A DNA stretch of 59,600 bases from Clostridia bacterium (GCA_024653205.1 JANLFO010000015.1:1-59600), one strand, 5' to 3'. Counted from the first letter of the stretch, positions 22,187-44,570 are shown. Made by a program: numbers and translations. The notes: generated from the letters alone by a model not told the origin.

Positions 22187-23968
22187 CTAGACTTCCTCCG
22201 CCGCGCCGGGCGGGCGGGCTAGGCGGTCGATCATCTCTCCGTACTGCCGGCAGAGCGTTTCTGCCGCCGCAAGCGAGCCCGCCTCGCCGTAAACGTGGTA
22301 CAGGGGCTCGTCCGCATCCGGCAGCAGCAGGGCCCAGCCTTCCGGCCGATAGACCTTGAGACCCTCCACCAGCTCTACCCGGCCCGGATCCTCCGCCTCG
22401 GCCAGCCGGCGCAGCACCTTTCCTTTGGCCCACCAGGGGCAGGGAACGTCCCGACCCGCCCGCCACACCGGGGGGAGGTCGGCTATGGCCCGGGCCAGGG
22501 TCCGGCCCTCCGCCGCCAAGCAGGCCGCCAGGCTGCTCAGGGTATAGAGCGCGTCGCCCAGCATCCTTACCTGCCGGCCGCCGCCCGGCTCCCGCCAGGC
22601 GGCCTCGGCCTGGACCCGCCAGTCGCTCCCCACCAACCGCACCTCCACTCCCCGGGCCCGGGCCAGCTCGCGGGCCGCCTCCGGGCCGGTCACCGGCAGG
22701 GCCAGCACCTCCAGCTCCGGGTCCGCCAGGGCCACCTGCGCCAGCAAAAGCTCCAGCCTGGCCCGGGCCAGGGGCATGCCCCCCGGCTCCCAGAGCCACA
22801 GTCTCTCCCCCTCGTCGCATATGCTTACCCCCACGGCACGCCGGGACCGCACCTCCTGCCGGAGGAGTCCACGATCGGCGGTGAGTGCCAGGTCCCAGGG
22901 CAGCAGGTCGGCCAGCCCTTCCACCAGGGCCCGCACCCGCGGCGAAGGGCTCTGCACCACCAGGTGCTCCCGGCCGGCGGGGTACCCGCGCCGGCCGCGG
23001 GCCCCCAGCACCTCCCGGAGATAGGCCAGGTATCGGGCCTCGGCATCGGCCCGGGTCTCGGGCCGACGGATCTGGTCCTCCCCCAGGCGCCGGAAATCTC
23101 CCTGCTGGTAGCCGGCCTCCACCTTGCGGCGCTGGCCGGTGGAAGGGGGCAGGCCCCGGCCGTCCATGAAGACCAGCCAGAAGCGGCCCTGCTCGCGCGG
23201 GTCGCGCCGCACGTGCACGCCTCCGGCCAGCCTTTCCTCCCGCACCAGGTAGCGGTGGGCCGGCAGCAGGACCTCGCCGAGGTCCAGCACCTGCAGGCCC
23301 CCGGCCATCAGCCCGGCCAGGACCGCCAGCGCCAGCAGTTCCGCACCGGCTCCGGGGGCCCGGCTCAACCCCACCCGGCTGCCGGGCTCAAGCACGCCGG
23401 CCCAGGCCTGGGCCACCTCGCTCACCCGGGCCGGGGTCAGGTCCCGGTGCAGGTACCCTCCTACGCCGCAAGAGGCAAACAGGCCCGGCGAGGCGCGGCT
23501 GCCCCACACCAGGTTCTCCCTCACGGTGGTATAGGGCTCTACCTCTTTCGACGGCCAGATCTTGACCTCCGGCTTTACCAGGCTGAAGGCCCCTACCCGG
23601 CTGCCGTCGCCCACCGCGGCGCCCTCGTAGACCGCGCTGTTCTCTTCCAGTACCACGCCCTCCCCGATCACCGCCCGCCGCGCCGCCGCCCGCCGGCCGA
23701 TGACCGCCCCCTTCCACACCACCGTCTGCTTGAGCGAGGCCCCTTCCTCCACCACCACGTTATCTCCGATTACCGTATAGGGCTCTACGGTCACGCCCGC
23801 CTCCAGGCGACAGTTGGAGCCGATCAGTACCGGCCCCCGCAGGCTGGTGCGCGGGTCGATGCAGGTGTTGGCACCCACCCGTATCCCCTCCCCCCGATCC
23901 TCGCCGGTCAGGGCAAAACCCACCCGTCCGGCCAGGACTTCCTGGTTGGCACGGCGGTACTCGTTCAA
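22187..23968 (-). CDS. 5'-truncated nucleotidyltransferase/phosphomannomutase fusion (hexapeptide + PMM part only)
   Basis: The 593-residue frame starts inside what is normally the end of an N-terminal sugar-nucleotidyltransferase domain: GNLNEYRRANQEVL matches the segment that follows it in mannose-1-phosphate guanylyltransferase-like fusions. Left-handed beta-helix repeats follow (IRVGANTCIDP, VLIGSNC, YTVIGDNVVVEEGA), then a divergent phosphomannomutase region (VGLSR, GGVHVRRDP instead of the serine-phosphate loop, VFMDGRG). The roughly 230-residue catalytic nucleotidyltransferase domain is missing from the window. The break lies 20-odd bases from the serine recombinase stop. A TTG (23968) could start translation, but a normal product is unlikely. 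Confidence 0.75.
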   Translation of the reverse strand: MNEYRRANQEVLAGRVGFALTGEDRGEGIRVGANTCIDPRTSLRGPVLIGSNCRLEAGVTVEPYTVIGDNVVVEEGASLKQTVVWKGAVIGRRAAARRAVIGEGVVLEENSAVYEGAAVGDGSRVGAFSLVKPEVKIWPSKEVEPYTTVRENLVWGSRASPGLFASCGVGGYLHRDLTPARVSEVAQAWAGVLEPGSRVGLSRAPGAGAELLALAVLAGLMAGGLQVLDLGEVLLPAHRYLVREERLAGGVHVRRDPREQGRFWLVFMDGRGLPPSTGQRRKVEAGYQQGDFRRLGEDQIRRPETRADAEARYLAYLREVLGARGRRGYPAGREHLVVQSPSPRVRALVEGLADLLPWDLALTADRGLLRQEVRSRRAVGVSICDEGERLWLWEPGGMPLARARLELLLAQVALADPELEVLALPVTGPEAARELARARGVEVRLVGSDWRVQAEAAWREPGGGRQVRMLGDALYTLSSLAACLAAEGRTLARAIADLPPVWRAGRDVPCPWWAKGKVLRRLAEAEDPGRVELVEGLKVYRPEGWALLLPDADEPLYHVYGEAGSLAAAETLCRQYGEMIDRLARPPGAAEEV

Positions 23969-23991
23969 GTTGCCCGTATTGGATACAGAGG
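23966..23991. other. Probable recombinase attachment junction inside the phosphomannomutase gene
   Basis: Reading on the minus strand, homology to the intact gene begins at GGCAACTTGAACGAG (Gly-Asn-Leu-Asn-Glu). The bases between it and the recombinase stop codon (CCTCTGTATCCAATAC) bear no relation to the expected Trp-x-Asp-x-Gly coding sequence. This is where one end of an integrated element would lie. I found no second copy of this sequence in the window, so the other junction is not seen. Confidence 0.5.
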
Positions 23992-25524
23992 TTACGGCTC
24001 TCCGGCCAGGGCGGCGTGAACCACCACCCGCATGGCCTCGCCCCGGCCCGCCACCACTACCTGCCGCACCAGGGTGCGCACCAGTGCCTTCTTCTGCTCA
24101 AAGGAGAGTTCGTCCAGCCGGGAAAGAAACTCTGCCGCCCGCTCCCTGAGTTCCCGGAGCCGGGCCTGCGACCGGGCCAGGCCTTCCAGAAGCGCCTCCA
24201 CCTCGCGCTTGCGCGCCAGCAACCGCTTCTTGCGGTGCTTCAGCTCGGCCAGGGTCCGGGAGGTGGCCGCATCCAGATCCAGGAGCCCCGCGGCCAGGGC
24301 CGCCCGGAGGTTGGCCTGACCTTTCTCCACCTCGGCCAGGTGGGCGTTGACCCGCTTCAGTTCCCGGCCCAGTTCCTCCCTACCCGACCCCTGCTCCATT
24401 TCCCGGGCGAGGGCCTCCGGATCCTTGAGCCAGCCCTTGATCTGCTCCCACACTGCCGTCTCCACCATCTCCGCCCGCACCCACTTCACCGGGCGGCAGC
24501 CCGGCCGGTAGGAGCCGGCCTGGCTCTTCAGACAGGTATAGCCCCGCACCCGGGTCCCGCGGCGACGGCTCTTGGTCATGCCGTGCATGGGGTTCCCGCA
24601 GTCGCCGCAGGAGATCAGTCCGGAAAGGAGGTACTCTTCCCTGGCCCAGCCGGACCACAGCCGGCGGGCGGCGCGGAGCTTCTCCTGGGCCCGCTCCCAG
24701 AGTTCCCTCTCTATCAGCGCCGGCACCGGCACGGCGATCCACCCGTTTTCTTCCCGGTAGGTCACGCGCGCCCGGGCCTCCGGGGGCAGGAAGCGGTTGT
24801 AGCCCACGCCCCGGCAGTCGCGCCGGTTGTAGTACCAGGTGCCGACGTACACCGGGTCGGTCAGTATCCGGCGCACCACGCACCGCTGCCACCGGGGCCG
24901 GCCCTTGCGGGTAGGCACTCCCCGGGCGCTGAGCCGGGCGGCCACGCCGTTGATGCCCAAGTCCTCCCCCACGAACCAGCGGTAGACGGCCCGCACCACC
25001 TCGGCCTCCACCGGATGGGGTTCCAGCGCGCCCTCCCGGTAGAGGTAGCCGTAGGGGCAGGCGCCCACCGGCAGCTTTCCCTGGCGGGCCTTCTGCAGCT
25101 TTCCCCGCAAGGTGCGTTCCCGGATTTTCTCCTTCTCGTACTCGGCAATGGCGCCCCGCAGGGCGTAGAAAAGCCTGCCGTCAGGGGTGTTCTGCCACTC
25201 GAAGTTCACGAACTCCAGCCGCACGCCCGCCCTTTCGATCTCTTCGGTAAGCAGCAGCTGGTGGGCCAGGTTCCGCGCCAGGCGGTCCGGGTCGTAACAC
25301 ACCACCAGGTCCACCTGTCCCCCGCGCACCGCCTCCCGCAGGGCGCCCAGGCCCGGCCGGCCGTCCAGGAGTTCCCCGCTCACGCCCTCATCGACGAACT
25401 CCGCCACCTCCGCCGCTCCCAGGGCCAGGGCCCGGTCGCGGCAGGCCGCCCGCTGGTCGGCCAGGGAGTACCCCTTCCGCGCCTGCTCCTCGGTGGAAAC
25501 CCGCGCGTAGATGCCGGCTCTCAT
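23992..25524 (-). CDS. Large serine recombinase
   Basis: A 510-residue site-specific recombinase. The N-terminal resolvase domain has the catalytic serine in IYARVSTEEQ (Ser10), then SLADQRAAC, DEGVSGELLDGRPGL and YDPDRLARN. A recombinase domain (GACPYGYLYREGALEPHPVEAEVVRAVY in pieces) follows, with a zinc ribbon (CGDCG...YTC...C near residues 310-350) and a long coiled coil before the C-terminus. Such enzymes integrate and excise phages, conjugative elements and sporulation-excised elements. ATG 25524 overlaps the stop of the upstream 43-codon gene (ATGA). Its stop lies right beside the broken phosphomannomutase gene. Confidence 0.92.
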   Translation of the reverse strand: MRAGIYARVSTEEQARKGYSLADQRAACRDRALALGAAEVAEFVDEGVSGELLDGRPGLGALREAVRGGQVDLVVCYDPDRLARNLAHQLLLTEEIERAGVRLEFVNFEWQNTPDGRLFYALRGAIAEYEKEKIRERTLRGKLQKARQGKLPVGACPYGYLYREGALEPHPVEAEVVRAVYRWFVGEDLGINGVAARLSARGVPTRKGRPRWQRCVVRRILTDPVYVGTWYYNRRDCRGVGYNRFLPPEARARVTYREENGWIAVPVPALIERELWERAQEKLRAARRLWSGWAREEYLLSGLISCGDCGNPMHGMTKSRRRGTRVRGYTCLKSQAGSYRPGCRPVKWVRAEMVETAVWEQIKGWLKDPEALAREMEQGSGREELGRELKRVNAHLAEVEKGQANLRAALAAGLLDLDAATSRTLAELKHRKKRLLARKREVEALLEGLARSQARLRELRERAAEFLSRLDELSFEQKKALVRTLVRQVVVAGRGEAMRVVVHAALAGEP

Positions 25525-25652
25525 TTCCCCCTCTCGCTCCCCTCTCCTTCCGGCCCGCCGGCCTCGGAGAAAAAGCGGGCCAGCAGCCGGTAGGCTTCGC
25601 GCAACGCGCCTTCGTCCTTGCCGTGATAAACTACTTCTACCCTGGCACGCAC
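25521..25652 (-). CDS. 43-residue protein translationally coupled to the serine recombinase
   Basis: A short frame (start GTG 25652, GGAGG 9 nt upstream) codes for a small basic-acidic protein (VRARVEVVYHGKDEGALREAYRLLARFF, then a Gly/Glu-rich tail). It ends in TGA overlapping the recombinase ATG. The predicted strand-helix shape and coupling suggest a partner or leader of the recombinase, perhaps a directionality factor. No family is recognised. Confidence 0.6.
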   Translation of the reverse strand: MRARVEVVYHGKDEGALREAYRLLARFFSEAGGPEGEGSERGK

Positions 25653-25662
25653 TCCTCCCGAC

Positions 25663-25691
25663 CTCCGGATGGTATTCTTCCCCATCCGGAG
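25663..25691. repeat. Perfect 10-bp inverted repeat upstream of the recombinase unit
   Basis: CTCCGGATGG (25663-25672) and CCATCCGGAG (25682-25691) pair around a 9-nt loop. The hairpin lies about 10 nt before the 43-codon gene start in the direction of transcription, so it could be an operator or an RNA hairpin affecting expression. No T run follows on the minus strand. Confidence 0.6.
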
Positions 25692-25867
25692 CCCCGCCAG
25701 CCACGGCAGAGACGCCCTCCTGAGTATAGCAAGGGGTCACCGGCCGCGTCCATTCGGGGCCGCCCGAACCGAGGCATAGTCCCCGGCGGAGAAGGCCTCA
25801 AGAATCGCGTTACCGAACGCGGCCGCATAATCTAATACCAACTAAAGGAAAGAAAGGTGATCGGCAC

Positions 25868-26584
25868 ATGAGCCGTCAGCTTCCACCCTGTCCGGAAGGC
25901 AACTACTACACCATCCAGCCCGGCGATACGCTCTATAGCATCGCCCGGAGGTTCAGAGTATCGGTAGACGACCTCCTGGAAGCCAACCTGGGCCGCGTAG
26001 ACCCGGACAACCTGCAGATAGGCCAGGTTATCTGCATCCCGCTGGCCGTGCCCCCGGTGCAGTGCCCCCCCGGCTCCACCGTCTATACCATTCGGGCCGG
26101 CGACACCTTCTATTCCCTGGCCCGGCGCTTCGGCATCTCCGTGCAGGCCATCATAAACGCCAACCCCGGGGTCAACCCCGAGGCCCTGCTCGTCGGCCAG
26201 CAAATCTGCATCCCGGCCCGTCCCCGGCCGGGCGTTTGCCCTCCCGGGACCAGGGCTTACCGGATCCGTTCCGGCGACACGCTTTACTCCCTGGCCCGGC
26301 GCTTCGGCACCACCGTGGAGGCCATACAGGAGGCCAATCCCGGCATCAATCCGCTGAATCTCCAGATCAACCAGCTCATCTGCATCCCCACGGTAATAAG
26401 GCCTCCCAGGCCACGGCGCTGCCCCGCGGGCAGCTTCGCTTACGTCATCCGGGCCGGCGACACCTTCTATTCCCTGGCCCGGCGCTTCAACACCACGGTA
26501 GAGAGCATCCAGGCCCTCAACCCCGGGGTAGATCCGAACCGCCTGCAGGTCGGGCAGGTCATCTGCATACCCCGGGAAGCCTGA
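25868..26584 (+). CDS. Protein of four LysM domains
   Basis: A 238-residue protein built almost wholly of four LysM repeats of about 45 residues, separated by short Pro/Cys-rich linkers. Each has a [YV]xI[QR][PAS]GDT[LF]YS[IL]ARRF core and ends QxICIP. LysM domains bind peptidoglycan or chitin. There is no obvious signal peptide, so the protein is either spore-associated, as SafA-like coat proteins are, or exported otherwise. The paired Cys in each repeat may form disulfides. ATG 25868 has AAAGGTGAT upstream. CATAATCTA at 25828-25836 resembles a SigK -10, but no matching -35 is seen. Confidence 0.85.
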   Translation: MSRQLPPCPEGNYYTIQPGDTLYSIARRFRVSVDDLLEANLGRVDPDNLQIGQVICIPLAVPPVQCPPGSTVYTIRAGDTFYSLARRFGISVQAIINANPGVNPEALLVGQQICIPARPRPGVCPPGTRAYRIRSGDTLYSLARRFGTTVEAIQEANPGINPLNLQINQLICIPTVIRPPRPRRCPAGSFAYVIRAGDTFYSLARRFNTTVESIQALNPGVDPNRLQVGQVICIPREA

Positions 26585-26623
26585 TTCCCAGGGACGGAAA
26601 AGCCTTTGGGAGGGAATGGGGCA

Positions 26624-27127
26624 ATGCAGGAAGACATCCAACCGGAAAGCCCGCTCGGCCGCGCCAAGTGCCGGTACTACCCCACCGAGGGGTACTACCC
26701 GAAGAAGGCCTACGCCGAGGCACTGCGCCTCATAGCGGAAGCCGTACAGGATGAAAGAGGAGACGAACTCTTTTACGACTATCTCCTAAGCAAGGCCCCG
26801 TCTGAGGAGCAGAGGGCCGTAATCGCGGCCATCAGGGACGACGAAAGAAAGCACCAGCGCATGTTCCGCCAGCTCTACTGCGAACTGACCGGCAAGGCCG
26901 TGCCGCCGGGGGAGCCGGAACGCTTCGAGCCCCCCAGGACCTACCTCGAGGGGATCGAGCGCGCCCTCTTCGGCGAGCTCAGGGCGGTAGAGATGTACCG
27001 CCGCATCCTTTTCGGGCTGAAAGACCTGGCCTACCGGAACATGGTAACCGAGATCTGGACCGACGAGCTCAAGCATGCCTGCAAGTGGAACTTCCTTTAC
27101 ACCCTGAACACCTGCCGGGACAACTGA
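26624..27127 (+). CDS. Ferritin-like (rubrerythrin-type) diiron protein
   Basis: A 167-residue four-helix protein with the spaced metal-ligand motifs of ferritin-like proteins: an acidic helix QDERGDELFYDYLL, DDERKHQRMF (E-x-x-H), GELRAVEMYRRIL, and DELKHACKW (E-x-x-H). It lacks the rubredoxin domain of full rubrerythrins. A role in oxidant or iron handling, or in the spore coat, is possible but unproved. ATG 26624 is chosen over TTG 26606 because GGGAGG lies between them. It follows the LysM gene by 39 nt on the same strand and may be co-transcribed. Confidence 0.78.
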   Translation: MQEDIQPESPLGRAKCRYYPTEGYYPKKAYAEALRLIAEAVQDERGDELFYDYLLSKAPSEEQRAVIAAIRDDERKHQRMFRQLYCELTGKAVPPGEPERFEPPRTYLEGIERALFGELRAVEMYRRILFGLKDLAYRNMVTEIWTDELKHACKWNFLYTLNTCRDN

Positions 27128-27316
27128 GAAGCCGCCCGGTGAAACACCCGTCCGACCCGACCGGCCCACCTCCTGCATCGCAGTCCTGGAAAGGGCGGGT
27201 CCCGGCGCCAGTGCTCCGCCGCCGCGACCCGCCCCGCCACCCCGTCCACCAGGTCCGGGAAGACGCCGGCTTCGGCGGAATGCTTCTTCCGTTTGAACCT
27301 CTCGTCCGCTTTGAAC

Positions 27317-27952
27317 CTAGTGCAGCTCCGGCTGGTACTTCTCCTGCAGCGGTTTGAGCACGTCAATGGCCTCCTTGACTTCCGGGGCACAGGGAGCCTT
27401 GAGGTCGGCAACGATGGTCCGGCCTTCGTAAGGGGGCGAGCTGTGGGTCTGGCCGAGCCATACTTTCAACTCGTAGTAGGCGCCGTCTGGCAGCGGCGGC
27501 CAGGACTTGGGGAAGGCGGTATAGGCTACGTAATCCTTGTCCGCCTCTTGGGGCACCTGCTCCCAATCCACCTTCTCCAAAACCGCCTTGACGGCGGCCA
27601 GTTCTTCGGCCGCAAGCTTACCCTTGTTGTCAACCGCGTCGCCGTAGTCACCCTCGGAAGTGATACTTAACCGGTAGCAGTGCAGCGAACCCCCCTCGGG
27701 AAAGTGAACGAACTTCACGTACCAAAGCTCCGGCAGAGCCTTGCCCGGTCCGAGACTCTTGGGCCCCGACCATTCCGGCCAGGTCCCGCCCTGCTGGGAA
27801 GACTGTGCTTGCGGCTCCTGCTTCTGCTCTTGGGCGGGCTGCGCGGCCTGCCCCGAAGGGGTGGCCGGAGACGATCCCCCGCACCCCGCCAAACCGGCAA
27901 CCAGGCAGAAAACCATCAGCAAGGCCAACGATACTCCCAGGTATCGACCCAT
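27317..27952 (-). CDS. Lipoprotein of unknown function
   Basis: A 211-residue secreted lipoprotein. The basic start and hydrophobic core are followed by a lipobox (AGLAGC, Cys about residue 24) and a Ser/Gln/Pro-rich linker. The soluble domain (about residues 55-211) has WYVKFVHFPEGGSLHCYRLSIT and YYELKVWLGQTHS blocks. No family is recognised. It is the last of a run of envelope genes on this strand (27317-34416). The GTG/ATG start near 27952 gives a normal signal peptide. Confidence 0.75.
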   Translation of the reverse strand: MGRYLGVSLALLMVFCLVAGLAGCGGSSPATPSGQAAQPAQEQKQEPQAQSSQQGGTWPEWSGPKSLGPGKALPELWYVKFVHFPEGGSLHCYRLSITSEGDYGDAVDNKGKLAAEELAAVKAVLEKVDWEQVPQEADKDYVAYTAFPKSWPPLPDGAYYELKVWLGQTHSSPPYEGRTIVADLKAPCAPEVKEAIDVLKPLQEKYQPELH

Positions 27953-28030
27953 TTACCATACCTCCTTATCGTTATGCCGTAGTCACAGCCACCGGCGCGG
28001 CGGGCGCTTGCGCAGCCGTACCCACGGTCC

Positions 28031-28825
28031 TTAAGGTTTGCCCGCTGCCTTCTGAAGTTGCTGCAGCATCTCGCCCAGGTCCGTGACCTTTACTCCCGCC
28101 GGAAGCTCGAAGGTCTCCGGCGGCAAGGGGCCAAACCGGAGGTTCTTGTACTCCACCACGGTCTTTCCCTGTCCCGGGACCTCGGTCTCCACCTTCACCG
28201 GGAGCCCGCAGTCCTCGCGGACCCACATTTTGCTCTGGGCTCCGTCTGCCTCCGCCACCAGGATCACCTTGCAGGGCGCCCCGTCGTACACTTCACTGCC
28301 AATCACCCGGGCCTTAGTGAAATCCCGATCCTTGAGGTAGTCGCCGGGGGATTTGGCGTCAACCTGCGGTCTCTCGCCCGCAAGCTTCACCGCCTCGTTC
28401 CGGTCGGGATAGTAGGTGATCAACGTGTGGGTTTGCGTGTCCAGGATGCTGACCATCTTCTGGCCGCCGAAGTTACCCTCGGTCTTGAGCTTGTACCCCT
28501 GAATCCATATCTTCATGCTCGTCGTCCCCTGGGGCGTGGTGGTGATCAGGTCGTAGGCGACGCCCTTTTGCATCAACTCTTTAACCCGGTCGGTTCCGGC
28601 CACCAGCCCCTCGCCGGAACCCGACCCGGCGCCGCCGGAGGGCTGTTCCGTAGAAGGTACCCCGCCACCGGACGCGCCTCCCGGCGCGGACTGACTTTCG
28701 CTCTGGGCAGGCGCCTCCTGCCCGCCCGACGGCGCGCTCGAGGGCCGGCCGCACCCGGCCAGGGCAAGTAGCGCCAAAACCAAGATGAGGGCCATACTGC
28801 TGCACACGAACTTACGCCGTTTCAA
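28031..28825 (-). CDS. LolA/DUF4412-like lipoprotein
   Basis: A 264-residue lipoprotein with a lipobox (LLALAGC) and a Ser/Gly/Gln-rich linker to about residue 75. The mature domain resembles LolA/LppX-type outer-layer lipoprotein sensors (YDLITTTPQGTTSMKIWIQGYKLKTEG; YYPDRNEAVKL; KMWVREDCGLPVKVETE; YKNLRFGPLPPETFELPAGV). Such folds bind lipid or sense envelope state, as in the C-termini of some anti-sigma-associated proteins. TTG 28825 is chosen because GGGAGG lies 9 nt upstream; the longer frame has no signal peptide at its start. It sits within the envelope cluster. Confidence 0.75.
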   Translation of the reverse strand: MKRRKFVCSSMALILVLALLALAGCGRPSSAPSGGQEAPAQSESQSAPGGASGGGVPSTEQPSGGAGSGSGEGLVAGTDRVKELMQKGVAYDLITTTPQGTTSMKIWIQGYKLKTEGNFGGQKMVSILDTQTHTLITYYPDRNEAVKLAGERPQVDAKSPGDYLKDRDFTKARVIGSEVYDGAPCKVILVAEADGAQSKMWVREDCGLPVKVETEVPGQGKTVVEYKNLRFGPLPPETFELPAGVKVTDLGEMLQQLQKAAGKP

Positions 28826-28981
28826 ACTACTGCACCTCCCGTCTTTTGTTTGCCCGGCTTTGCCGGCTGGCGCGGCTCCGCACCTTAAGGTTATCTCTAA
28901 GAGGCCAGGGCGGCCGCCACCCGGGCCAGGGTGCGAACACGCCAAATTGCGGCGGAGGGGCTCCGGGTATTCGGCTTGAGG

Positions 28982-30094
28982 CTATCCGGCCTGCTCCCGG
29001 TCGAGCTGCGCGGGCCCGGCCTTGCCGCTCTCCATATCTAATTCCCACAGCTTTGGCGGGCCGTTTCCGGAAGTGGAGAAAAAGTAAAAGTAACGGTCGT
29101 CGGCCAGCCAGCAGCCGCGGGTCAGGTTCACCTCCTTTTCCTTGAGCGCCTCGCTCAGGGAGCAAACCCGCCGGCCGGCGGTCACATCGTAGATCAGGAT
29201 GTCTGTCCGTCCGGAAGGCACCTGCGCTTCCACCGCCAGGAGGCGACCGCCGGGCGCCCAAACCAGTTCGCCGACCCAATGCTCGAACCGGTCCAGGACC
29301 CGCACCTTTTCCCCCTCGGCAGCCACACCGACCGTGAATCCGAAAAGGCCGAGCACAGCAAAAGCCGCCCGGCCGTCGGGGAACAGGGCGACGCACTTGA
29401 ACTCCCCGGCGCTGGTAACTTTTTGCTCCGGGTTGTCTCCCTGGGGCGTGAAGGGCACGGGAATTTGCCCGCTGGTGATCACGGTCTTTTCCCGGCCAGC
29501 CGCATCTCTAATGTCAAGCGCGGTCCATCCCCGGGCGGCGTAGGCCTGAGTTGGGCTCCCGGGCTCCCAACCGTCCACCGCCAACCCCTCGCCCTGGCGG
29601 ACGATGGTCAGTTTCTCCCGGTAAAACATACTCTCCGCCTGTTCCGCCGGTCCGGTCAGCCAGATGGTCAAGGTCGCCGTCCACGAGCCCTGGCCCTCGA
29701 CGATCTCCTCCAGCCTGTAACCGCTCAAGCGCTGCCTGACCGGCGCGCCACCCAGGGTGGGATCGGACCCGTTGACAAAGGCCTGCTTACCCCGCTCGGT
29801 AAGCATGGCGTAGACCCGCTCTCCGAAAGGCTCCAGCAGCCGGTAACGCATGAACCGGTGGACGAAGGTTTCGACGTCGGGCTTTTCCCTAGTAGTCCCC
29901 CGCACTGCCGCTTGCAGGGTTCCCGGCCTGGGCTCCGCCAGGCCACCGTCCGCTCCCGCCACCTGCTCCGACGCCTGTTGCAGCGGCGCCGGTGAAGCCT
30001 CCACCGGCGGCTTCCCGCCGGTACCGCAGCCGCCCAGGGCAAAGCTTGAGACCGCCAGGACAAGGACGAGAATGCCGTTGAACAATCGCCTCAA
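28982..30094 (-). CDS. Lipoprotein with a C-terminal WD40/TolB-like region
   Basis: A 370-residue lipoprotein with a lipobox (LGGC, Cys about residue 23). The middle domain (about 70-190) contains FVHRFMRYRLLEPFGERVYAMLTERGK and a strand-rich part. A C-terminal region carries propeller-like strands: VALFPDGRAAFAVLG, LVWAPGGRLLAVEAQV, ILIYDVTAGRR, LADDRYFYFFS. No named family was recognised. The two-part build (a domain that reads an extracellular signal plus a short beta-propeller) is inferred from sequence pattern only. Confidence 0.7.
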   Translation of the reverse strand: MRRLFNGILVLVLAVSSFALGGCGTGGKPPVEASPAPLQQASEQVAGADGGLAEPRPGTLQAAVRGTTREKPDVETFVHRFMRYRLLEPFGERVYAMLTERGKQAFVNGSDPTLGGAPVRQRLSGYRLEEIVEGQGSWTATLTIWLTGPAEQAESMFYREKLTIVRQGEGLAVDGWEPGSPTQAYAARGWTALDIRDAAGREKTVITSGQIPVPFTPQGDNPEQKVTSAGEFKCVALFPDGRAAFAVLGLFGFTVGVAAEGEKVRVLDRFEHWVGELVWAPGGRLLAVEAQVPSGRTDILIYDVTAGRRVCSLSEALKEKEVNLTRGCWLADDRYFYFFSTSGNGPPKLWELDMESGKAGPAQLDREQAG

Positions 30095-30119
30095 CCCTAT
30101 CCCTAATTCGCCTCCCTTG

Positions 30120-30605
30120 CTACCGCGTCGCGTACCGCTCGGCCAGGTCCCCGACGAGGGGAAGCTTATAGCGCTCTCCCCGATAAGCCTTGATCATCAA
30201 GAGCACCCAGAGAACGAGGGACCCCAGCCAGATGAGCACCCCTAGCGTCCGGAAAAGGAGCCACAGCGGCCACAGTCCTGCAGGCAAAAGAACCGTAACT
30301 ACGAGGTAGAGCACGGTAATTCCGCCAAAAGTAAGGATCGACTGCAGGGCGTGAAAGCGCACGAACGGGTCCTTCTCCACCAGGTAGAACACGATACCCG
30401 TTATCCAGCCCAGGACGTAACACAAGACGCCGGCCAGGTTCGGCGCCAGCCCGGTCTGGGTGCCGGCGGAAGACACCTTTTCGGCCCCCCCGCGGTCACC
30501 GACCCAAGCGTTGCCCGAACCCCCGGCCCCTTCCAACTGCGCCCCGCACCGGGTGCAAAGGCGGGCGCCGGGCGCGCTCTCCTGTCCGCACTGCGGGCAA
30601 AACAC
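30120..30605 (-). CDS. Zinc-ribbon membrane protein (DUF4870-like)
   Basis: A 161-residue protein. The N-terminal zinc ribbon is MFCPQCGQESAPGARLCTRCG, and a flexible linker follows. About four hydrophobic segments form a small membrane domain (LAGVLCYVLGWITGIVFYLVEKDPFVRFHALQS is the DUF4870/Tic20-like motif, split here). Function unknown; such proteins are common beside envelope genes. The N-terminus is closely similar to that of the next upstream gene (30642-31921), which suggests a shared regulatory or scaffold role. Confidence 0.8.
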   Translation of the reverse strand: MFCPQCGQESAPGARLCTRCGAQLEGAGGSGNAWVGDRGGAEKVSSAGTQTGLAPNLAGVLCYVLGWITGIVFYLVEKDPFVRFHALQSILTFGGITVLYLVVTVLLPAGLWPLWLLFRTLGVLIWLGSLVLWVLLMIKAYRGERYKLPLVGDLAERYATR

Positions 30606-30641
30606 CGTCTACACCCCCTATACTTGACCGGGCCAAGCCGG

Positions 30642-31921
30642 TTACTGCCTTGCTCCGCCTTCCGGCGCGGGAGCCACGGCCTTCTGCGCCAGACGCCGGA
30701 ACTTGCCGGATATGCTGCTCAGGGCGGCCCGCAGGTCGTGCGCGGGCACCTGCCCGGCAATGGACGGTGGTAGCTGGCCACCATGGCTACGGTAGCCAGG
30801 GGATCGGCCACGATCCACTTGATCATGCCGGCGAAAATGAAGGCCGCCAGCAGGGCCACAAACCCGTAGAGGGCCTGCAGCCCCGGCACGGGAGTGAGCG
30901 AACGCGCCACTCCCAAGAGGGGAAAAAGCAGAGCCAGAAAGGACACTACCCAGACCGCGGCCACCACCAGGACGCACCAGGTAGCGGTGCCCAAGAGTTG
31001 CCGCCAGCTCTGGGCGTACAGCACCACACCGTCGCAGGCCGCCTGGTAAATATTTTGTTCTTCGTGGGTTAGGACGTAGCCCATCACCGCCTCGTCGATA
31101 TAGTTGCCGGCCAGGCCCAGGATGCGGCGCAAAAGTCCGATAATCAAATTCAAACCCGGAATGCCGCCCAAACAGCCCGCCAGGCGGGTAAGCCAGTTCA
31201 GCACTTGACGCACCGCGCCGGCCACCAGCGCATCCACGACGAACAGGGCGCTGGCCGTGCCGAAGTGCTTGAGCACCTTCTCTTTCCCGTAGCCCACCTG
31301 GCTGGTGCCCGGCGGCAGATCCCCTTTGGTGACGATTTCGGTGATCACGGCCACGTGGCCGATCTTCACCAGATAGAGGAAGTAACGCTGGGCCAGAACG
31401 GTCAGCGCCCAGGCGCCCATAACGGCGACCAGCCCTACCACCGCCAGGGGCAACCCCGCTCCCTGGAAGTGGCGGGCAATCAAATATCCGATCCCGCCCA
31501 TGACGCCGAGGAACGCGATGAGGATCACGCCGAACAGGAGGTAAACCCCTATCCGTAAGAACACGTAAGGCAGGGTCCGGAAAAACAGGCTCCCGGCCGA
31601 AACCCCGCCCGCCGGCGCCGTCCCCTTTCCTGCCGGGGCAGCCGGCGACGGTCCCGGCACCGCCGCGCCCGGGGTCCGGCTTTCCGCCGCGGCCGCCTCT
31701 TCTCCGGCAATTTCCGCCTGCCCGGCACCCGAGGGCTCCGGGGGCCTACAGGCGGCTTCCGCCGGGGAAGGGCCCTCCGGGGCCGCAGCCACGGGAACGG
31801 GAGTACCCGCCCCGGCCGGAGTGGTTACCTCCGGAGGCGCCTCTGCCGGCACGAAGGTTCCGCATTGCGGGCAGAACCGTGCGCCCGGAGGCGCCTTTTT
31901 GCCGCACTGAGGGCAAAACAT
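30642..31921 (-). CDS. Zinc-ribbon multi-pass membrane protein, frameshifted near its C-terminus
   Basis: The main frame (31921 to 30719, 400 residues) has a zinc ribbon (FCPQCGKKAPPGARFCPQCG), a long Pro/Ala linker and about five membrane segments. It shows no lipobox and ends abnormally after VAMVASYHR. In a second frame the sequence resumes with IAGQVPAHDLRAALSS and runs to a TAA at 30642, adding some 37 residues. One missing base at about 30762-30764 explains the switch. Either the gene carries a 1-nt deletion or the sequence has an error. Function unknown; it is related in layout to the gene at 30120. Confidence 0.72.
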
Positions 31922-32094
31922 GGCCGATCAGCTCCTGACCTGTCAGTCTAAATCTCACCCGGCTCCGGATCGGGGCCCAAAGCCCTGCCGAAGTACCCTC
32001 CCTCTAAGAACTCGCCACATAAGCGCCGGGGGAAGCCGGGGATAACCCGGCCCCCGGCCCCCGCACTATCTGAAGCCGCGCCCAACCCGCCGGT

Positions 32095-34416
32095 CTAATG
32101 CATAATGGTGACGGTCTGCGTGCTCTGGTCCCAGTTCACTTCCGCGCCCAGAGCTTCGCTCACGAAGCGCAGCGGCACCAGGGTGCGCCCGTTCAGGATC
32201 AGCGCCGGCTGGGATAGGGTTACCGGCTGCCCGTTCCTGTTAGCCACGGGCAGGCCGATCACCAGGACGATTACTGTGTCGTCCCGGGTGGCGGTTATGG
32301 TTTGGGTGGCCTGGTCCCAGCTCACCGCCGCCCCCAGGGCCTGGAAAATAACCCGCAGGGGCACCAGGGTCCGGCCGTTCAGGATGACCGGCGGCTGGTC
32401 AAAGGCAAGCGGTTGGTCATTAAGCAGCACCCGGATGCCCTCCGAGAGGGGTGTGCCCGCGGGTTGGACCGTTGGAAGAGAAGGCGCCGTCGGCGGCTGC
32501 CCGGAGGAAGGTAGGGCCACGGAGCCGGCAGTTAGCGTATCCGCCGAAAGCGGCAGAATACCCACCTCGAGATCATTCTCGTTGTAGAAGAGGATCTCCG
32601 CCTGCTCGTAGCGGCTGCACATGAAAAATCCGGGCGTGTAGTGGTTAAGCGGCAGGATCTGCGGGTTGGCCCGGTACTCTTCCTGCGCCCAGCCGCCCAC
32701 TTCCCACTGCCAGCAGGTATTGTCAAAAGCAAAGTGGGAAACCTCCACCGGCCGGGCCGCCGTGGCCTCCACCATGATCTGCGGAATGGCTCCGGTGTCC
32801 CCCGGCCCGGCCACAATGCCGCCGTCGCTGATCTCACAGAGGCCGGGGACGGTCACTATGCCCAAACTCCGGGATCCGGTGGCGCAGATTGCTCCCAGCC
32901 GGCCGTCGTTGTAGTTGCCGATAATAAGGCCCAGTTGGTCGTAGCGGGCGACCATCAGCATGAACATCCCGTACTGGGGGATGTCGTAGAGCTTGTCGTT
33001 GGCGGCGTAACTCTCCTGCGCCCAGCCGGATACCTCGTCGTGCCGGTAGGTTCCCTTATCCCAGATGCCCACTTCTACCGGTTCACCGTACGAGTGGATC
33101 TGGAACTGGCCGCCTACCCGCTTGACCTCCCCCAGGCCGGGCACGGTCAGGCCGTTGAAGGGCCCGCCCTTGAACACCCGGTAGGTCAGCCGGCGGTCGT
33201 TCTCCCGCAGGAAGACCAGGTAGATCTTCTCGTAGCGGGCCAAAAGCATCACTGCGGTGCGGTAGTGGGGCAGGCCGAAGACCTGCGGGTTGGTCCTATA
33301 CTGGGGCTGCGCCCAGCCGCCGACCTCGGTGTGGTAGAAATACTGCGCCGAACTGCTCCAGGTGCTCTCGAACTCTCCGGCGGGATGCACTTCCATACCC
33401 GTCGACGGGCTTTGCGGCGTGCCGTTGGGGTTGAGCAGCAGGTAGGAAACCTCCACCGGATGGGCCGGATCGTTGGCCTTCACCTGCAGGTTGTAGGCGA
33501 TGGAGGCTTCGCTGTCCGGATGCGGATAGGCGGTGAGCGTGACGAAGGATGGGTCGTCGATCAGAATCAGCCCGCCGGCCTGCGGGGGCTGAGTCTCGCC
33601 CGGGGGTGGTGGCTCGGCCGTAGGCGGGGCGGGCTCCTGCTGAGCTGCGCTGGCGAGGCTGAAATGGTCGCTCATCCCCCAACAGGCGCTGTTAGCCGTA
33701 CTCGTCACCTTGATCCGGTAACCGCTGCCCGGTGTTACATAACCGCCCCCCACCGCCAGGCTACTCCTGATCGCCCAGGTGTAAGAACCGGTGCCGTCCG
33801 CCCCGATGGGCACCGAGGCGGCAATCAGCCCTTTGGAAGACCCACCTTGATAAAGCTCGATTCTTACCAAACTGCCGGGATTGCCGGTGTACAGCCACCG
33901 GATGGTCTGGGTCGAACCCGCGGTCCACACCTCTCCGCCCGCAGGGGAGGTGACGGTGATGGATTCCACGCCCAGGCCAAAGTAGTCGCTCATCCCCCAG
34001 CAGTTTCGGTTGCGTACGCTGGTCACCTTGACCTGGTAGTCGCTGCCCGGCTTTACGTAGCCTCCCCCCACCGCCAGGCTGGGCCTAATCTGCCAGGTGT
34101 AGGAGCCTTCTCCGTTGGCGCCGATGGGAACCGCGGAGGCGGCGATCCGGCCCTTGGACTTGCCGGCCTGGTAAAGCTCGATGATTACGGTAGGGCCCAG
34201 GTCGTTTACGTCGCCCGTGTACCGCCACCGGATAGTGTGGGTCGAGCCCGCCGTCCACACTTCTCCCCCTGCCGGCGAAACCACGGTAATGGAGGCCTCG
34301 CCGGATACCTCGGCCCGCGCGGCCGGGGCCCGCCCGACCGGCGGGACGGCCAGGGCCACCGCCGTTACCAGGGCCAACAACAAGAGATACGCGCTTTTCC
34401 GTAACCTCAGCGACAC
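32095..34416 (-). CDS. Secreted repeat protein with two copper-amine-oxidase-like C-terminal domains
   Basis: A 773-residue exported protein. A signal peptide (about residues 1-36) is followed by two tandem about 100-residue Kre9/Knh1-like (Ser-Thr-rich) repeats (SPAGGEVWTAGST, IRW, SYTW, SLAVGGGYV...PGS, CWGMSD). A Pro-rich linker leads to a central domain with repeated GGWAQ/SGWAQ and YEK/ARY units, and two Cu_amine_oxidN1-type domains close the protein (VILNGRTLVPLRVIFQALGAAVSWD and ALILNGRTLVPLRFVSEALGAEVNWD in pieces). The latter are common on surface proteins of thermophilic Clostridia and are not enzymatic. It is probably a surface or matrix protein. First gene of the minus-strand envelope run. 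Confidence 0.8.
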   Translation of the reverse strand: MSLRLRKSAYLLLLALVTAVALAVPPVGRAPAARAEVSGEASITVVSPAGGEVWTAGSTHTIRWRYTGDVNDLGPTVIIELYQAGKSKGRIAASAVPIGANGEGSYTWQIRPSLAVGGGYVKPGSDYQVKVTSVRNRNCWGMSDYFGLGVESITVTSPAGGEVWTAGSTQTIRWLYTGNPGSLVRIELYQGGSSKGLIAASVPIGADGTGSYTWAIRSSLAVGGGYVTPGSGYRIKVTSTANSACWGMSDHFSLASAAQQEPAPPTAEPPPPGETQPPQAGGLILIDDPSFVTLTAYPHPDSEASIAYNLQVKANDPAHPVEVSYLLLNPNGTPQSPSTGMEVHPAGEFESTWSSSAQYFYHTEVGGWAQPQYRTNPQVFGLPHYRTAVMLLARYEKIYLVFLRENDRRLTYRVFKGGPFNGLTVPGLGEVKRVGGQFQIHSYGEPVEVGIWDKGTYRHDEVSGWAQESYAANDKLYDIPQYGMFMLMVARYDQLGLIIGNYNDGRLGAICATGSRSLGIVTVPGLCEISDGGIVAGPGDTGAIPQIMVEATAARPVEVSHFAFDNTCWQWEVGGWAQEEYRANPQILPLNHYTPGFFMCSRYEQAEILFYNENDLEVGILPLSADTLTAGSVALPSSGQPPTAPSLPTVQPAGTPLSEGIRVLLNDQPLAFDQPPVILNGRTLVPLRVIFQALGAAVSWDQATQTITATRDDTVIVLVIGLPVANRNGQPVTLSQPALILNGRTLVPLRFVSEALGAEVNWDQSTQTVTIMH

Positions 34417-34637
34417 GGGGTCATGCTCCTCCTCTCCGCCTCGTTTAAGAAAACCTTCGATACACCTTCTCAGTTATCAAATTACCGTTAAAAAATCGTC
34501 AAAACCTCCGGCCCTCCATGTGGTCGCCCAAGCTTCAGCCGCCGAGGTTGGTCTACTTTTTCACGTTCTTTTGACGGCGGACCGCTAGGGTATAAGGGTA
34601 AGGAGTCTGAGTCTTCTCACCGGGAGGGAACAGCAAC

Positions 34638-37600
34638 GTGGGGCTTCTCGCGGGCATACTGGCGGTCATTTTCGGCCTGATGGCCGCTTCTACCATCTTG
34701 CCGGGCTTCAGCCCCGAGGCCCGGGCCCAGGACGGCGACAGGGTAACCGTTACCGGCCAGTTCGCGGCTACCTGCCGCGTCAACGGCCTGGATGAAGACA
34801 TCACCCTCCCCGTTCGCAAGTGCCGGGCCGAGCTGGTGGAGGTCCGAGCAGGCGATGAGGGATTGTATCAGATCACGGAGGAGGTGTTGGCCACCGGGGA
34901 GACCGACGAGAACGGCCGGGTAACCTTCACCGTGGACCGGATCAAGCACCGTGGCAGTCTATTCGCCGCCTACGACGACGTCATCGATGTGAAGATCGTC
35001 GTTTACCCCGATAACCCGGCGGCCAAGGTGGAGGATTTCGGGCCCGCCGGGGCCTTGTCCTGGCACCGCTGGCCCCTCGAAACCCGGGTAGCGAATAACG
35101 TCAGCGGCCCCACGCTTTCTCTGACCGCCACGGCCACCGGCGACCACGGGTTTGCCTTCTACCTGGCCGACGTCCTGCTGGCCGGGCAGCGGGAGCTCAA
35201 GAAGATGGTTGGGGAGCTGCCCCTCGGCCAGGTTTCCGTGGACTGGCTGGCTTCGGGCGACCAGTGCGCCTACAAGCCCCTGTTTAAGCGCATCTACATC
35301 GTGCCCTCCGCCCGGACCGCCGAAAACGTGCTGCACGAGTACGGCCACGCCCTGCATCACGCCGCAGCAGGTACCCTGCCTTCCTATTCGCCCTCCGACG
35401 AACAGGCCGGCGTCTCCGGGGCCGCCCCCCGCGACGATGTGGCCCTGACCGAAGGGTGGGCAGACTTCCTGGCCCAGGTTCTGCTGCAGCGCATCCACGA
35501 AAACGACTCCAACCTTAGGGGAAAATTCTTTTATGATCCCGAATGGCTGAGGGAGGACCTGGAAGGCTTTACTTTCCGAGAAGGAATTAGCAGCGCCCGC
35601 CACATCCCCGCCGTCACGGCCACCCTCTGGGACCTTTACGACGACGTGGCCACCTGGGACCTCACCCAGGTCACCACCAGGCCGGCAGAGGTGGACGCGG
35701 TTAGCGACTTTGCCGAGATCTGGCGCATCCTGGGCTCGAACCCCTCCTCGATCAAGGATTTCTACGGCCGGTGGAAGGTCGGCCGCAACCAGGCCGGCGC
35801 GTACTACATCATGCGCCAGCACTACCTCCAGGTGGGAGAGAACGGGCGCGTTCCCCTTTCCTTGAGCACCAGGGAGGCCATCATCTGGGAGTTCCGGCTC
35901 TGCCTGGAAGCGGCTCAATACCTGCGGTTAGACCGAGGCATGGTAGAGAGCGCGGGTTCCAACCTGCGAGAGGCGGGTGATAGGGTACTGCGGAACTACG
36001 GGTGGAGCGAGGCAAACATCGCCCAAAGCCAATGGTGGCAGGCAACTTCTGTAGAGGAGGCCGTCAACCGGGTGCGCGACACCTGGCCCGCCTCCTGGCC
36101 CGGCGCGTTAAGGGTTTACCCCGCTTCCGCAGCGCAGCTGAGGGCAGTAGACGATTTCCTGCGCACCTCTGAGAGGGCCTGCGAGGCCGGCTCACACTGG
36201 CAGACGGGCCTGAACGGGGTGGCCTTTGCCGCCGGAGTTACCGATACTGACTGGGTCGGCGCCCCCAACCTGGCCGACGCGGTGTGGCGCTTTCTGGCGG
36301 CCCTGCGTCCGCCTTCGGCGCTGAGCTGGAAGGAGCGCCTCCTCTGGGAGTTCCGCCTCCAGACCGAGGCCTGCGGTTTCTCCTCCGACGGCACGACGGC
36401 AGACTGGACCAGTGATGTGGACGCCCTGCTGGAGTACTACGGCTTTCTGCCGGGATCGTCGGCGCGCGAAGCCTGGCACGGTGCGAGCAGTGCCGACCTG
36501 GCCGCCCAGAGGCTTGCCGCCGCCATCCCCGAGGACTACAGGGCACCCGCCCAAAACCAACTTACCACCGGGCAGCTCTGGGCGCTCGAGAAACTGATCG
36601 CCCAGTGCCGCTCGAATTACGCCACCGGACGGCCCTGGCGGGAGGGCCTGGATCGCCTGGTTAGCCAGTACCTTCCCGGCGGAGAGGAACAATTGGCAGG
36701 GGATCTAACCCACCCGCGGCAGGCGTACGCGCGGCTGGTAGACTGGCTCACGCAAAGAGGGCCACAGGACGCCCTGGTGGTGAGGTACACCGACCCCGCC
36801 GGGGGAGCTACAGAGGTTCCCGCAGGCAAGAGCTTGGTGATCGGCTTCAGCAAGATAATCCAGCCCGGTTCTGCCTATAACCAGATAAGCGTCACGGATT
36901 CGGGCGGCCGGAAGCCGGCGCTGAGCGTAACCCCGGGCTTTTACACCCTGGTGCTGGACCCCACGGCCGACCTTAGCCCTAACGCCACTTACACCGTTAC
37001 CGTACCGCAAGAGGCCGTCAGGGACGCCGACGGCCACTCCTTGACCGTTAGGAGCGCCGCGGGCCAGGCCGCGAACGCCTACACTTTCTCCTTTACCACC
37101 GCCGCCCTCAACGAGCCTCCCCGCATAGTCTCTACCGATCCGACCCACGGGGCCACCGGTGTAGACCCGAATAAGACCATCACCGTGATTTTCAGCGAGC
37201 CCGTGCAGCCGGGGAGTACCTACGGGGCAATCTCCCTGATCTTGGCGGACGACAACTACTTAGACCCCGTCCACCCGCTGCCGGCGACTGTTAGCCTGGC
37301 CGGCAGCACCTTAACCATCGACCCGGCCGCGCCGTTGGCCAGAAACACCTGGTACACGGTGTCCGTCCCCATGGGAGCGGTCGCGGACCAAGGCGGCGTT
37401 GCCAACCAGGGTCACGCCAGTTTTACCTTCCGGACCAAAGCCGATCCGCTCCAGGTGGTCTCCACCCACCCGGCCCACAATTCCACCGGAGCCAAGGTGA
37501 ACCACCCCATCACCGTGACCTTCAATCAGGATTTGTCTCCGGGACCGGCCTTGGGCCAGATCGTCCTCCAAGACCCTCTTGGCAACCCGGTACCGGTCCA

Positions 37601-39047
37601 AACCAATCTCTCCGGAAACACTTTGCGCCTGACCCCGGCCAGTCCCCTGGGCTATAGCCGCGTCTACCGGGTGACCATACCGGCCCAGGCGGTGGTGGCC
37701 GCCGCCGACGGCACGCCCTTTAGCCCCCCGGTCAGCTACCAGTTTAGTTTCCAGACCGAAGCCACCCCGGACACCACGCCCCCGCACGTGTGGATCAGCC
37801 CCACTCCCTACACCTACAGCACTCCCCAGACCGTCAGTCTGGGCGCCGACGAGCCAGCCACCATCTACTACACCCTGGACGGGACCAACCCCACGACCAG
37901 CAGCAGCCGGTACACGGCGCCGCTGGTCATCGGCGCCACCACCACCATCAAGTACCTCGCAGTGGACGCCGCGGGCAACCAATCGGCCGTCCAGACCGCG
38001 ACCTACGTCATCGACTACGGGGGACCGGCGGTGGTGGGAAGCACGCCCGCCGACAACACCGGCGGGGTAAATCCCAACCTGGTTCAGCAGATCTGGGTCA
38101 ACCTGAGCGAGATGTGCCGGCACGGCCCGGCTTTTTCCTCCATCGCTCTGAAGAAGGCAACCGGCACCCAGGTTTCGGCAACGGTGGAGCTGCTGGGCGA
38201 TACCATTAAGATCACGCCGGCCCCTTCCCTAGAATGGGGGACCGCCTACGTAGTCACCATCCCCGCGGGGGCAGTGGCAGATACGGCCGGGAACCTCCTC
38301 GCCGCAACGTCCGCCATTAAGTTTACCACCATGGCGGCACCGGCCGCCCCCACGGTGGTGGCCACCTCCCCCGCGGACGGAGCCACCGGAGTGCCGGTAG
38401 ATAAGCCCATCTCGGTTACGTTCAGCGAAAACGTGCTCCCGGGCCCCTATTTCGACTACGAGATTACCGGTGCCGACGGCTCCCACTCCGGCGGAATCGA
38501 GCTTAAAGGCCCCGACGGCCGGGCAGTGGGCATATCCAAGCAGATCAGCGGAGCCATACTGGAGATCACTCCCCTGGCGCCCCTGGCCTACGGCACCGCC
38601 TATACCGTGCGCATTCCCTACTTCGCGGTGCGGGACCAGATGAACCGGATGCTGGAGTCGGCCGTCACCTTTAGCTTCACTACCGAGCCGGCGCCGGCGT
38701 CCCTCGGGCCGCAGGTGGTGGGCACCACCCCTGCCGACCGGCAGAGGAACGTTGCCCTCACCGGGCCCATTGTAGTCACGTTTGACCGCGACATTCAGGC
38801 GGGAAAGGCCTTCGCCGGGATCAGCGTAACCGCAGCCGACGGCTCTGGGCTATCGCTCAGAGCCATAGTCAGCGGGCAGGCCCTCGCCCTGGTGCCGGTC
38901 AAGGGGATGCAGCCGGGGCGCACTTACACCGTGGTCATTCCCGCCGGGGCGGTGCGGGATCTGACGGGAGCCCCTCTGGCCCGGGAATACCGGTTCTCCT
39001 TCCGCACCGCAACGCTACCCATGAACCTGCCGGACTATTACCGGTAG
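34638..39047 (+). CDS. Giant surface protein with gluzincin-like protease site and Ig-like repeats
   Basis: A 1469-residue secreted protein. A signal peptide (about residues 1-31) leads to an N-terminal beta domain. A putative zinc protease core follows: HEYGH (His233, Glu234, His237) and, 34 residues on, Glu272 in ALTEGWADF, the HExxH...E pattern of gluzincins. A helical region (about 330-700) contains several WEFRL repeats. Six bacterial Ig-like (Big_5) repeats (each with VVxTxPA, GAVxD and TFSF[TR]T motifs) and one chitobiase-C-like domain (PATIYYTLDGTNP) fill the C-terminal half. GTG 34638 has GGGAGGG. It is divergent from the secreted repeat protein. Confidence 0.78.
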   Translation: MGLLAGILAVIFGLMAASTILPGFSPEARAQDGDRVTVTGQFAATCRVNGLDEDITLPVRKCRAELVEVRAGDEGLYQITEEVLATGETDENGRVTFTVDRIKHRGSLFAAYDDVIDVKIVVYPDNPAAKVEDFGPAGALSWHRWPLETRVANNVSGPTLSLTATATGDHGFAFYLADVLLAGQRELKKMVGELPLGQVSVDWLASGDQCAYKPLFKRIYIVPSARTAENVLHEYGHALHHAAAGTLPSYSPSDEQAGVSGAAPRDDVALTEGWADFLAQVLLQRIHENDSNLRGKFFYDPEWLREDLEGFTFREGISSARHIPAVTATLWDLYDDVATWDLTQVTTRPAEVDAVSDFAEIWRILGSNPSSIKDFYGRWKVGRNQAGAYYIMRQHYLQVGENGRVPLSLSTREAIIWEFRLCLEAAQYLRLDRGMVESAGSNLREAGDRVLRNYGWSEANIAQSQWWQATSVEEAVNRVRDTWPASWPGALRVYPASAAQLRAVDDFLRTSERACEAGSHWQTGLNGVAFAAGVTDTDWVGAPNLADAVWRFLAALRPPSALSWKERLLWEFRLQTEACGFSSDGTTADWTSDVDALLEYYGFLPGSSAREAWHGASSADLAAQRLAAAIPEDYRAPAQNQLTTGQLWALEKLIAQCRSNYATGRPWREGLDRLVSQYLPGGEEQLAGDLTHPRQAYARLVDWLTQRGPQDALVVRYTDPAGGATEVPAGKSLVIGFSKIIQPGSAYNQISVTDSGGRKPALSVTPGFYTLVLDPTADLSPNATYTVTVPQEAVRDADGHSLTVRSAAGQAANAYTFSFTTAALNEPPRIVSTDPTHGATGVDPNKTITVIFSEPVQPGSTYGAISLILADDNYLDPVHPLPATVSLAGSTLTIDPAAPLARNTWYTVSVPMGAVADQGGVANQGHASFTFRTKADPLQVVSTHPAHNSTGAKVNHPITVTFNQDLSPGPALGQIVLQDPLGNPVPVQTNLSGNTLRLTPASPLGYSRVYRVTIPAQAVVAAADGTPFSPPVSYQFSFQTEATPDTTPPHVWISPTPYTYSTPQTVSLGADEPATIYYTLDGTNPTTSSSRYTAPLVIGATTTIKYLAVDAAGNQSAVQTATYVIDYGGPAVVGSTPADNTGGVNPNLVQQIWVNLSEMCRHGPAFSSIALKKATGTQVSATVELLGDTIKITPAPSLEWGTAYVVTIPAGAVADTAGNLLAATSAIKFTTMAAPAAPTVVATSPADGATGVPVDKPISVTFSENVLPGPYFDYEITGADGSHSGGIELKGPDGRAVGISKQISGAILEITPLAPLAYGTAYTVRIPYFAVRDQMNRMLESAVTFSFTTEPAPASLGPQVVGTTPADRQRNVALTGPIVVTFDRDIQAGKAFAGISVTAADGSGLSLRAIVSGQALALVPVKGMQPGRTYTVVIPAGAVRDLTGAPLAREYRFSFRTATLPMNLPDYYR

Positions 39048-39196
39048 GAGGCGGCGGGGTGCGGGGCGGCAGCAGGCGGATATTCGCTCAAGCTGGGAGG
39101 CGGGGAAGACTGGCTCCGGTTCCGCCGGGGCTTCAAACGAAGGGTAGAGCCGGCACGCTCCGGGTACCAGGAAAACCGGTAGCGGGTCGAGATGGG

Positions 39197-39308
39197 AGAC
39201 GGACGGCGCCTGCGCCGGGAGCCCCTTGGAGGGCGAGGCCCGAGCCCTAGTTCGGTCGGCGCGGTGACAGGACGAAGGGGGGCACCGGTACCGCCTAAAG
39301 GAAACTGC
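39197..39308. repeat. Second, inverted copy of part of the 254-bp element
   Basis: About 110 bases are the reverse complement of 5160-5275. Shared blocks include GACGGACGGCGCC-like, CCCGAGCCC[TC]AGTTCGGTCGGCG, GGTGACAG and CCGGTACCGCCTAA. It lies in the 290-bp convergent gap between the surface-protein gene and the BTAD regulator gene. The remainder of that gap shows no gene. A GGTACC with a flanking CCGGTTTTCC-like motif near 39160 may be the worn other end. Confidence 0.55.
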
Positions 39309-39337
39309 GGACACTCCGGGAATAGAGCGGGCTGCGG

Positions 39338-41446: not shown

Positions 41447-41592
41447 GCTTCCCACTTCTTCGGAGGATTATGAAACTCTGTATGCGTGATCTGGTGCCAT
41501 TATCCCACCGCAGCGAGTTCCTGGCAAGAGGATGTGCGCCTCGCGCTCCGGCGGCTCCCCGCTCAGGTGCATTCTGGTGCCACCAAAACACC

Positions 41593-41621
41593 TTGTATCC
41601 GCCGGCCCGGCGTAATATAAT
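41593..41621 (+). promoter_or_regulatory. SigA promoter of the COG2984-type ABC transporter
   Basis: TTGTAT (41593-41598), a 17-nt spacer and TATAAT (41616-41621). Transcription would begin about 41628, giving a leader of about 175 nt before the first gene. Confidence 0.75.
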
Positions 41622-41627
41622 GGGTGA

Positions 41628-42832: not shown

Positions 42833-42847
42833 AGGTGTCAAGAGACC

Positions 42848-44544: not shown

Positions 44545-44570
44545 CCGCGCTACGCTCCTTCTTGTTTCCA

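Follow-up and report, generated by a model that had tools for sequence, protein, structure and literature searches.

The window analysed here is the entire contig C15 (59,600 bp), one of the 51 contigs of a 2.46-Mb draft genome, and probably carries the attR end of a skin- or SP-beta-like intervening element, a reading to which we give a probability of roughly 0.7. The element splits a gene for a nucleotidyltransferase/phosphomannomutase (NTase/PMM) fusion protein, and its excision, most likely in the sporulating mother cell, would restore that gene. This reading follows from what was observed: two gene halves, their common core and in-frame join, intact orthologs in relatives, a second split gene in genome G372 with an empty site in genome G064, and the kinship of the recombinase. 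The element is of a known kind; added interest comes from its recurrence, from three split genes in one genome and from a recombinase tree sorted by target gene. The split locus in the window has the following features.

22187..23974, minus strand: 3' half of the split NTase/PMM fusion gene, with LbH hexapeptide and PMM-like domains, beginning GNLNEY.
23957..23990, minus strand: attR half-site region, made up of the attP-derived arm TCTGTATCCAATACG, the core GG and the attB-derived arm CAACTTGAACGAG.
23973..23974, minus strand: deduced crossover dinucleotide GG within the core GGCA, the first 2 bases of the Gly codon of W-C-D-I-G.
23992..25524, minus strand: large serine recombinase of the SpoIVCA/SprA kind, 510 aa, assigned by domain and sequence matches and by a tree.
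25521..25685, minus strand: small ORF of 54 aa that overlaps the recombinase start, a candidate accessory or directionality factor with counterparts elsewhere.

A first-pass annotation of this DNA had noted a recombinase adjoining a cut fusion gene, with homology to the fusion protein starting abruptly at GNLNEYRRAN. Both points were borne out: the homology starts at 23974, 18 bp beyond the recombinase stop, and ends at the stop codon at 22187. The span given for the locus, 22187-25652, was right as to the locus itself, but the recombinase start is likely at 25524 rather than at 25652, within a reading frame that is open upstream as far as 25740. Resolvase, Recombinase and Zn-ribbon domains were detected in the recombinase using Pfam. 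A Pfam search with the 54-aa ORF gave no match; its counterparts were found upstream of several related recombinases, and it may be an accessory or directionality factor.

The N-terminal catalytic domain was absent from the window, as the annotation had also stated. Using the N-terminal domain of a relative as query against the same genome, we obtained one strong match, at C17:47539-48201 (+), with 71% identity to the relative's domain over residues 1-221.

C17:47539-48195, plus strand: 5' half of the NTase/PMM gene, with final residues ...FWCDIG.

The annotation had proposed searching the genome for an NTase domain that ends at the W-x-D-x-G site, and the half on C17 ends exactly at W-C-D-I-G. 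Its sequence reads ...CGGTTTCTGGTGCGACATCGGCA, after which homology is lost at GGTTGAAAACAGATC, and the window 3' half reads ...CTGTATCCAATACGGGCAACTTGAACGAG at the junction; GGCA is common to the two. Joining the flanks computationally gave a continuous, in-frame protein of 813 aa that resembles intact orthologs. The deduced attP, TCTGTATCCAATACG-GG-CAGGTTGAAAACAGA, is an imperfect inverted repeat with GG at its centre, and its symmetry about GG was matched by 0.4% of shuffles. The predicted junction sequences are TTTCTGGTGCGACATCGGCAACTTGAACGAG for attB and TCTGTATCCAATACGGGCAGGTTGAAAACAGA for attP; with exact att sequences now available, excision is testable by PCR. Judged from the sequences, two half sites that have a common core and recur in a second family are not a product of chance.

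Two origins had been considered for the locus at first, one end of an integrated element or the relic of a deletion, and intact copies elsewhere together with no matching 5' half had been named as counter-evidence. When the source genome was searched, the fusion gene did not turn up intact at any other place, so that a hidden intact copy was rejected, and a matching 5' half with the shared GGCA exists. The C17 half ending at the site, the GGCA core, the in-frame join and the lack of a second intact copy make a deletion relic unlikely, and this origin was rejected on finding the 5' half on C17. The same evidence supports the integrated element.

Orthologs at E<=1e-45 were present in 171 of the 398 genomes of a phylum sample, and the gene is intact in relatives from all other orders. 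Full-length orthologs are about 800-870 aa long and read GYWCDIGNLxQYRQAQ through the split point. Among the matches listed, almost all frames are at least 798 aa, and cut frames adjoining a recombinase occur only here (636) and in G372 (642); the few remaining short frames are at contig edges or belong to G096, where the frame is shorter and the contig has no recombinase. The gene order in another genome (G002) is GlgA, GalT, GT4, NTase/PMM, GH57 and aconitase, the names being assigned partly by inspection. This order connects the left parts of C17 and of C15, which makes the two flanks ancestral neighbours.

The second split case was found in G372, which belongs to another family.

G372:C2:47073-58358: split locus with recombinase, 5' half and 3' half together on one contig.

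The same NTase/PMM gene is split there at the same GG, in the same Gly codon. The halves are directly oriented, the crossover points are 8,844 bp apart, and the attP, ATCTGATTGCGACATC-GG-GATAGCGCAATCAGAT, has perfect 11-bp arms around a central GG. The G372 recombinase is 57% identical to that of the window, and the two are sisters in the tree (support 99/92). Two G372 cargo genes, DUF433-like (77%) and PIN-like (63%), recur on the C17 side of the source-genome element. G064, a congener of G372, has an uninterrupted gene, and its 799-bp gap-free alignment to the joined G372 flanks identifies an empty site. Because G064 is without the element, the insertions in the source genome and in G372 are probably independent. 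The recurrence in G372 also bears on the quality of the assembly. A recombinase misjoined to a gene fragment would be conceivable in a draft of 51 contigs, but the matching half with the common core lies on another contig and the same arrangement is present in the independent assembly of G372, on which ground we rejected a chimera; the probability left to it is negligible.

A search of the source genome returned two further recombinases, and both adjoin split genes.

C8:37371-38936: sigK-side recombinase, which precedes the sigK 3' half and is 55% identical to the window recombinase.
C8, L048:3908-4201 and L045:7372-9311: split halves of sigK.
C10:10579-12192: cotJC-side recombinase, distant, which precedes the cotJC 3' part.
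C10, L050:10074-16963: split locus of cotJC (spore coat).

The 5' half of sigK is located 34.7 kb upstream of the 3' half on the same contig and strand, and the intervening cargo includes Ku, an ATP-dependent DNA ligase, a radical-SAM protein and ABC-transporter parts. The symmetry of the attP of this element around the shared GA is not clear. The 5' part of cotJC is 6.3 kb off on the same strand, with the common core GGGGGCCCG and a cargo of SufB/D-like and ABC-ATPase (SufC-like) genes. A subset of the ORFs in the sigK and cotJC elements was scanned, and none of these was recognised as a phage gene. A scan of the genome contigs gave three more distant recombinases only. The link to skin and spsM drawn in the first-pass annotation is strengthened by the presence of split sigK and cotJC genes beside serine recombinases in the same genome.

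We then considered the DNA between the two NTase/PMM halves. Because the halves are on two contigs, its orientation and size in the source genome are presumed, a point against the element reading.

25525..59600: recombinase-side flank of the intervening DNA, to the contig end, ~34 kb, the presumed extent of the element in the window.
59166..59600, minus strand: surface-protein gene, 3' part, encoding a Cu_amine_oxidN1 domain and running off the contig end; judging by architecture, possibly continuous with the C17-end gene.

From attL onward, 8.4 kb are left to the end of C17, with genes for a Phd/YefM antitoxin, an ECF sigma factor, DUF433-like and PIN-like proteins, a zf-HC2 protein, a surface protein and an OEP. 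The last of these, an OEP/TolC-like outer-membrane-efflux gene, is found among surface-protein genes close to attL (C17, L044:4767-5906). The flank in the window is host-like, with LysM, rubrerythrin-like, surface-protein, ABC-transport, MCP, fliD and SNF2-helicase genes. The fliD gene at 50436-51845 (+), on the recombinase side of the split gene, is the only one in the genome. It adjoins a chemotaxis receptor gene and is apart from the other recognised flagellar genes.

C17 terminates within the 5' part of a secreted repeat-protein gene, and the architecture at the end of C15, on the strand matching the C17 end, is that of another surface protein in the window. By its architecture, the gene at the C15 end possibly continues the one interrupted where C17 stops on the right. 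This is suggestive only of an end-to-end join, and other contigs may intervene. Searches with the contig ends found no continuation of C17 or C15, and the C-terminus of a weak homolog of the C17-end protein, in G004, is without the domain present at the C15 end, a mismatch that leaves architecture as the support for the join. If C17 and C15 do join end to end, a reading favoured by GC skew as well, the element would be at least 44 kb.

Host-like DNA, including the sole fliD, counts against the element reading and is what would be expected if the element had integrated and later rearrangement or DNA gain had parted the halves, with excision lost and the 3' half decaying as a pseudogene. The location of the halves on separate contigs fits such a relic, as does the divergence of the 3' half, which is slightly above the average of intact orthologs (z about -1.2). 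That divergence is nevertheless within the range of intact orthologs, with decay no greater than in some of them, and the 3' half runs for 595 codons without interruption. Furthermore, the reading frames of the two halves are open and match when joined, neither the recombinase nor an att half site is disrupted, and the sigK and cotJC elements also have host-like cargo, yet are on single contigs with their halves in direct orientation. We regard a parted relic as quite unlikely. Chromosome-like genes on both sides, and halves that are not together on one contig, could also reflect an inversion switch, in which recombination of the attB in the gene with a distant chromosomal attP inverted the DNA between them, so that the locus flips instead of excising. 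However, all four segments have a positive GC skew if the insertion is taken to be collinear, the halves of the homologous G372 element are directly oriented and, suggestively, the C17 and C15 ends fit one gene when collinear. A flipping locus is therefore highly improbable.

The recombinase itself points to elements that split genes. Its closest solved relative is SprA (YokA) of SP-beta, the match covering residues 14-491, and its three-domain architecture and full-length similarity to the characterised SprA/YokA place it in the large serine recombinase family. Its best phage match is the integrase of Alicyclobacillus phage MMB025 (37.5% over 98% of the query), an infectious phage that integrates in sigK (PMC13141910). 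The best NCBIfam match was the XisF fdxN element excision recombinase, NF041201; at 110.7 bits this is below the cut-off of 375, and membership of the XisF equivalog was rejected. In the tree, recombinases sort by target gene for NTase/PMM, ligD, feoB, PRK06851 and most of sigK; the cotJC, spoVAD and yhbH recombinases have very long branches and their position is unsure. Related recombinases elsewhere adjoin 3' parts of sigK in several genomes, where the cases appearing as antisense ORFs were recognised by eye only. Others adjoin 3' parts of the ligD polymerase (G010, G265), spoVAD (G014), yhbH (G352), feoB (G008, G009) and a PRK06851-like gene (five genomes), all of them new candidate targets. 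Each of these five is counted as a recombinase beside a 3' part only because the 5' parts were not located; for spoVAD and feoB, the stretches examined contained no such part. Several related recombinases adjoin no obvious split gene.

The existence of such recombinases would also suit an integrative element of the ordinary kind, without a role in development, excised rarely or under stress for transfer, the gene being dispensable or working as a truncated NTase. Counting against a developmental reading, the NTase domain is complete in the N-terminal half, the gene is not known to serve sporulation, and a scan for sigma-E-like promoters ahead of the gene operon and of the recombinase yielded none, doing no better than shuffles. 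Set against this, sister clades split sigK, relatives adjoin spoVAD, yhbH and cotJC, and the other serine recombinases of the source genome sit in sigK and cotJC. We consider an element of this ordinary sort unlikely, while leaving it some weight.

According to the developmental reading, which we prefer, the recombinase would have inserted a DNA circle at the GG in the Gly codon of W-C-D-I-G by recombination of attP with attB. In the inserted state, only a truncated 254-aa product with the nucleotidyltransferase domain would be made, severed from the hexapeptide and PMM-like part. Recombination of attL with attR by the recombinase and a directionality factor would release the circle and restore the 813-aa frame. 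This would most likely happen in the mother cell during sporulation, where loss of DNA would be costless to the spore. We infer, rather than observe, that the element excises, at what stage it does so, that a directionality factor acts, what the restored enzyme does and how C17 links to C15. Glycogen-type genes neighbour the NTase/PMM gene, and its product may make spore or envelope polysaccharide.

A broader proposal, which we make tentatively and at somewhat less than even odds, is that this recombinase group is specialised in the phylum in splitting genes of terminal development, its clades switching targets (sigK, ligD, NTase/PMM and others), and that the source genome undergoes three simultaneous programmed eliminations of ordinary chromosomal genes, in the mother cell only. 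If this is true and the contigs join, the sigK (34.7 kb), cotJC (6.3 kb) and NTase/PMM (at least 44 kb) elements would amount to about 85 kb, or 3.5% of the genome. The data raise the question of whether the mother-cell genome is shaped by several eliminations of host-like DNA acting in concert. New in these data are a sugar-nucleotide gene hit at the same base pair in two families and the sigK and cotJC splits in the same genome.

Gene-intervening elements of Bacillus and Clostridium excise during sporulation, and the split genes named for these bacteria and their relatives in the papers cited are sigK, spoVFB, spoVR, spsM, gerE, yabG and kamA (PMC4191935, PMC5025042, PMC5595907, PMC6957869, PMC10747680). 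The corresponding features here are in-frame halves with a short core, a cognate recombinase beside the att site and an empty site (G064 compared with G372). The skin element in sigK of Bacillus subtilis and Clostridioides difficile (SpoIVCA and relatives) likewise has a serine recombinase at the element end, an in-frame split and a short core; by comparison, the target here is a sugar-nucleotide gene, the cargo is host-like rather than prophage-like and excision is predicted. SP-beta in spsM (SprA/SprB; PMC4191935) encodes the closest solved relative of the window recombinase, and spsM is likewise a polysaccharide gene, whereas no phage genes were recognised here and identity to SprA is low. 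The gin element in gerE of Bacillus cereus (PMC5595907) is also a non-phage intervening element with a serine recombinase, but has three recombinase genes in 28.6 kb, compared with one in the stretches of the NTase/PMM element examined. Phage MMB025 is similar in that its integrase, the best phage match, integrates inside a sporulation gene, and differs in being infectious, in its target and in its distant recombinase (PMC13141910). The fdxN element of heterocyst-forming cyanobacteria, whose XisF is the best NCBIfam match though below the equivalog cut-off, is a case of developmental excision in a terminal cell (PMC6957869).
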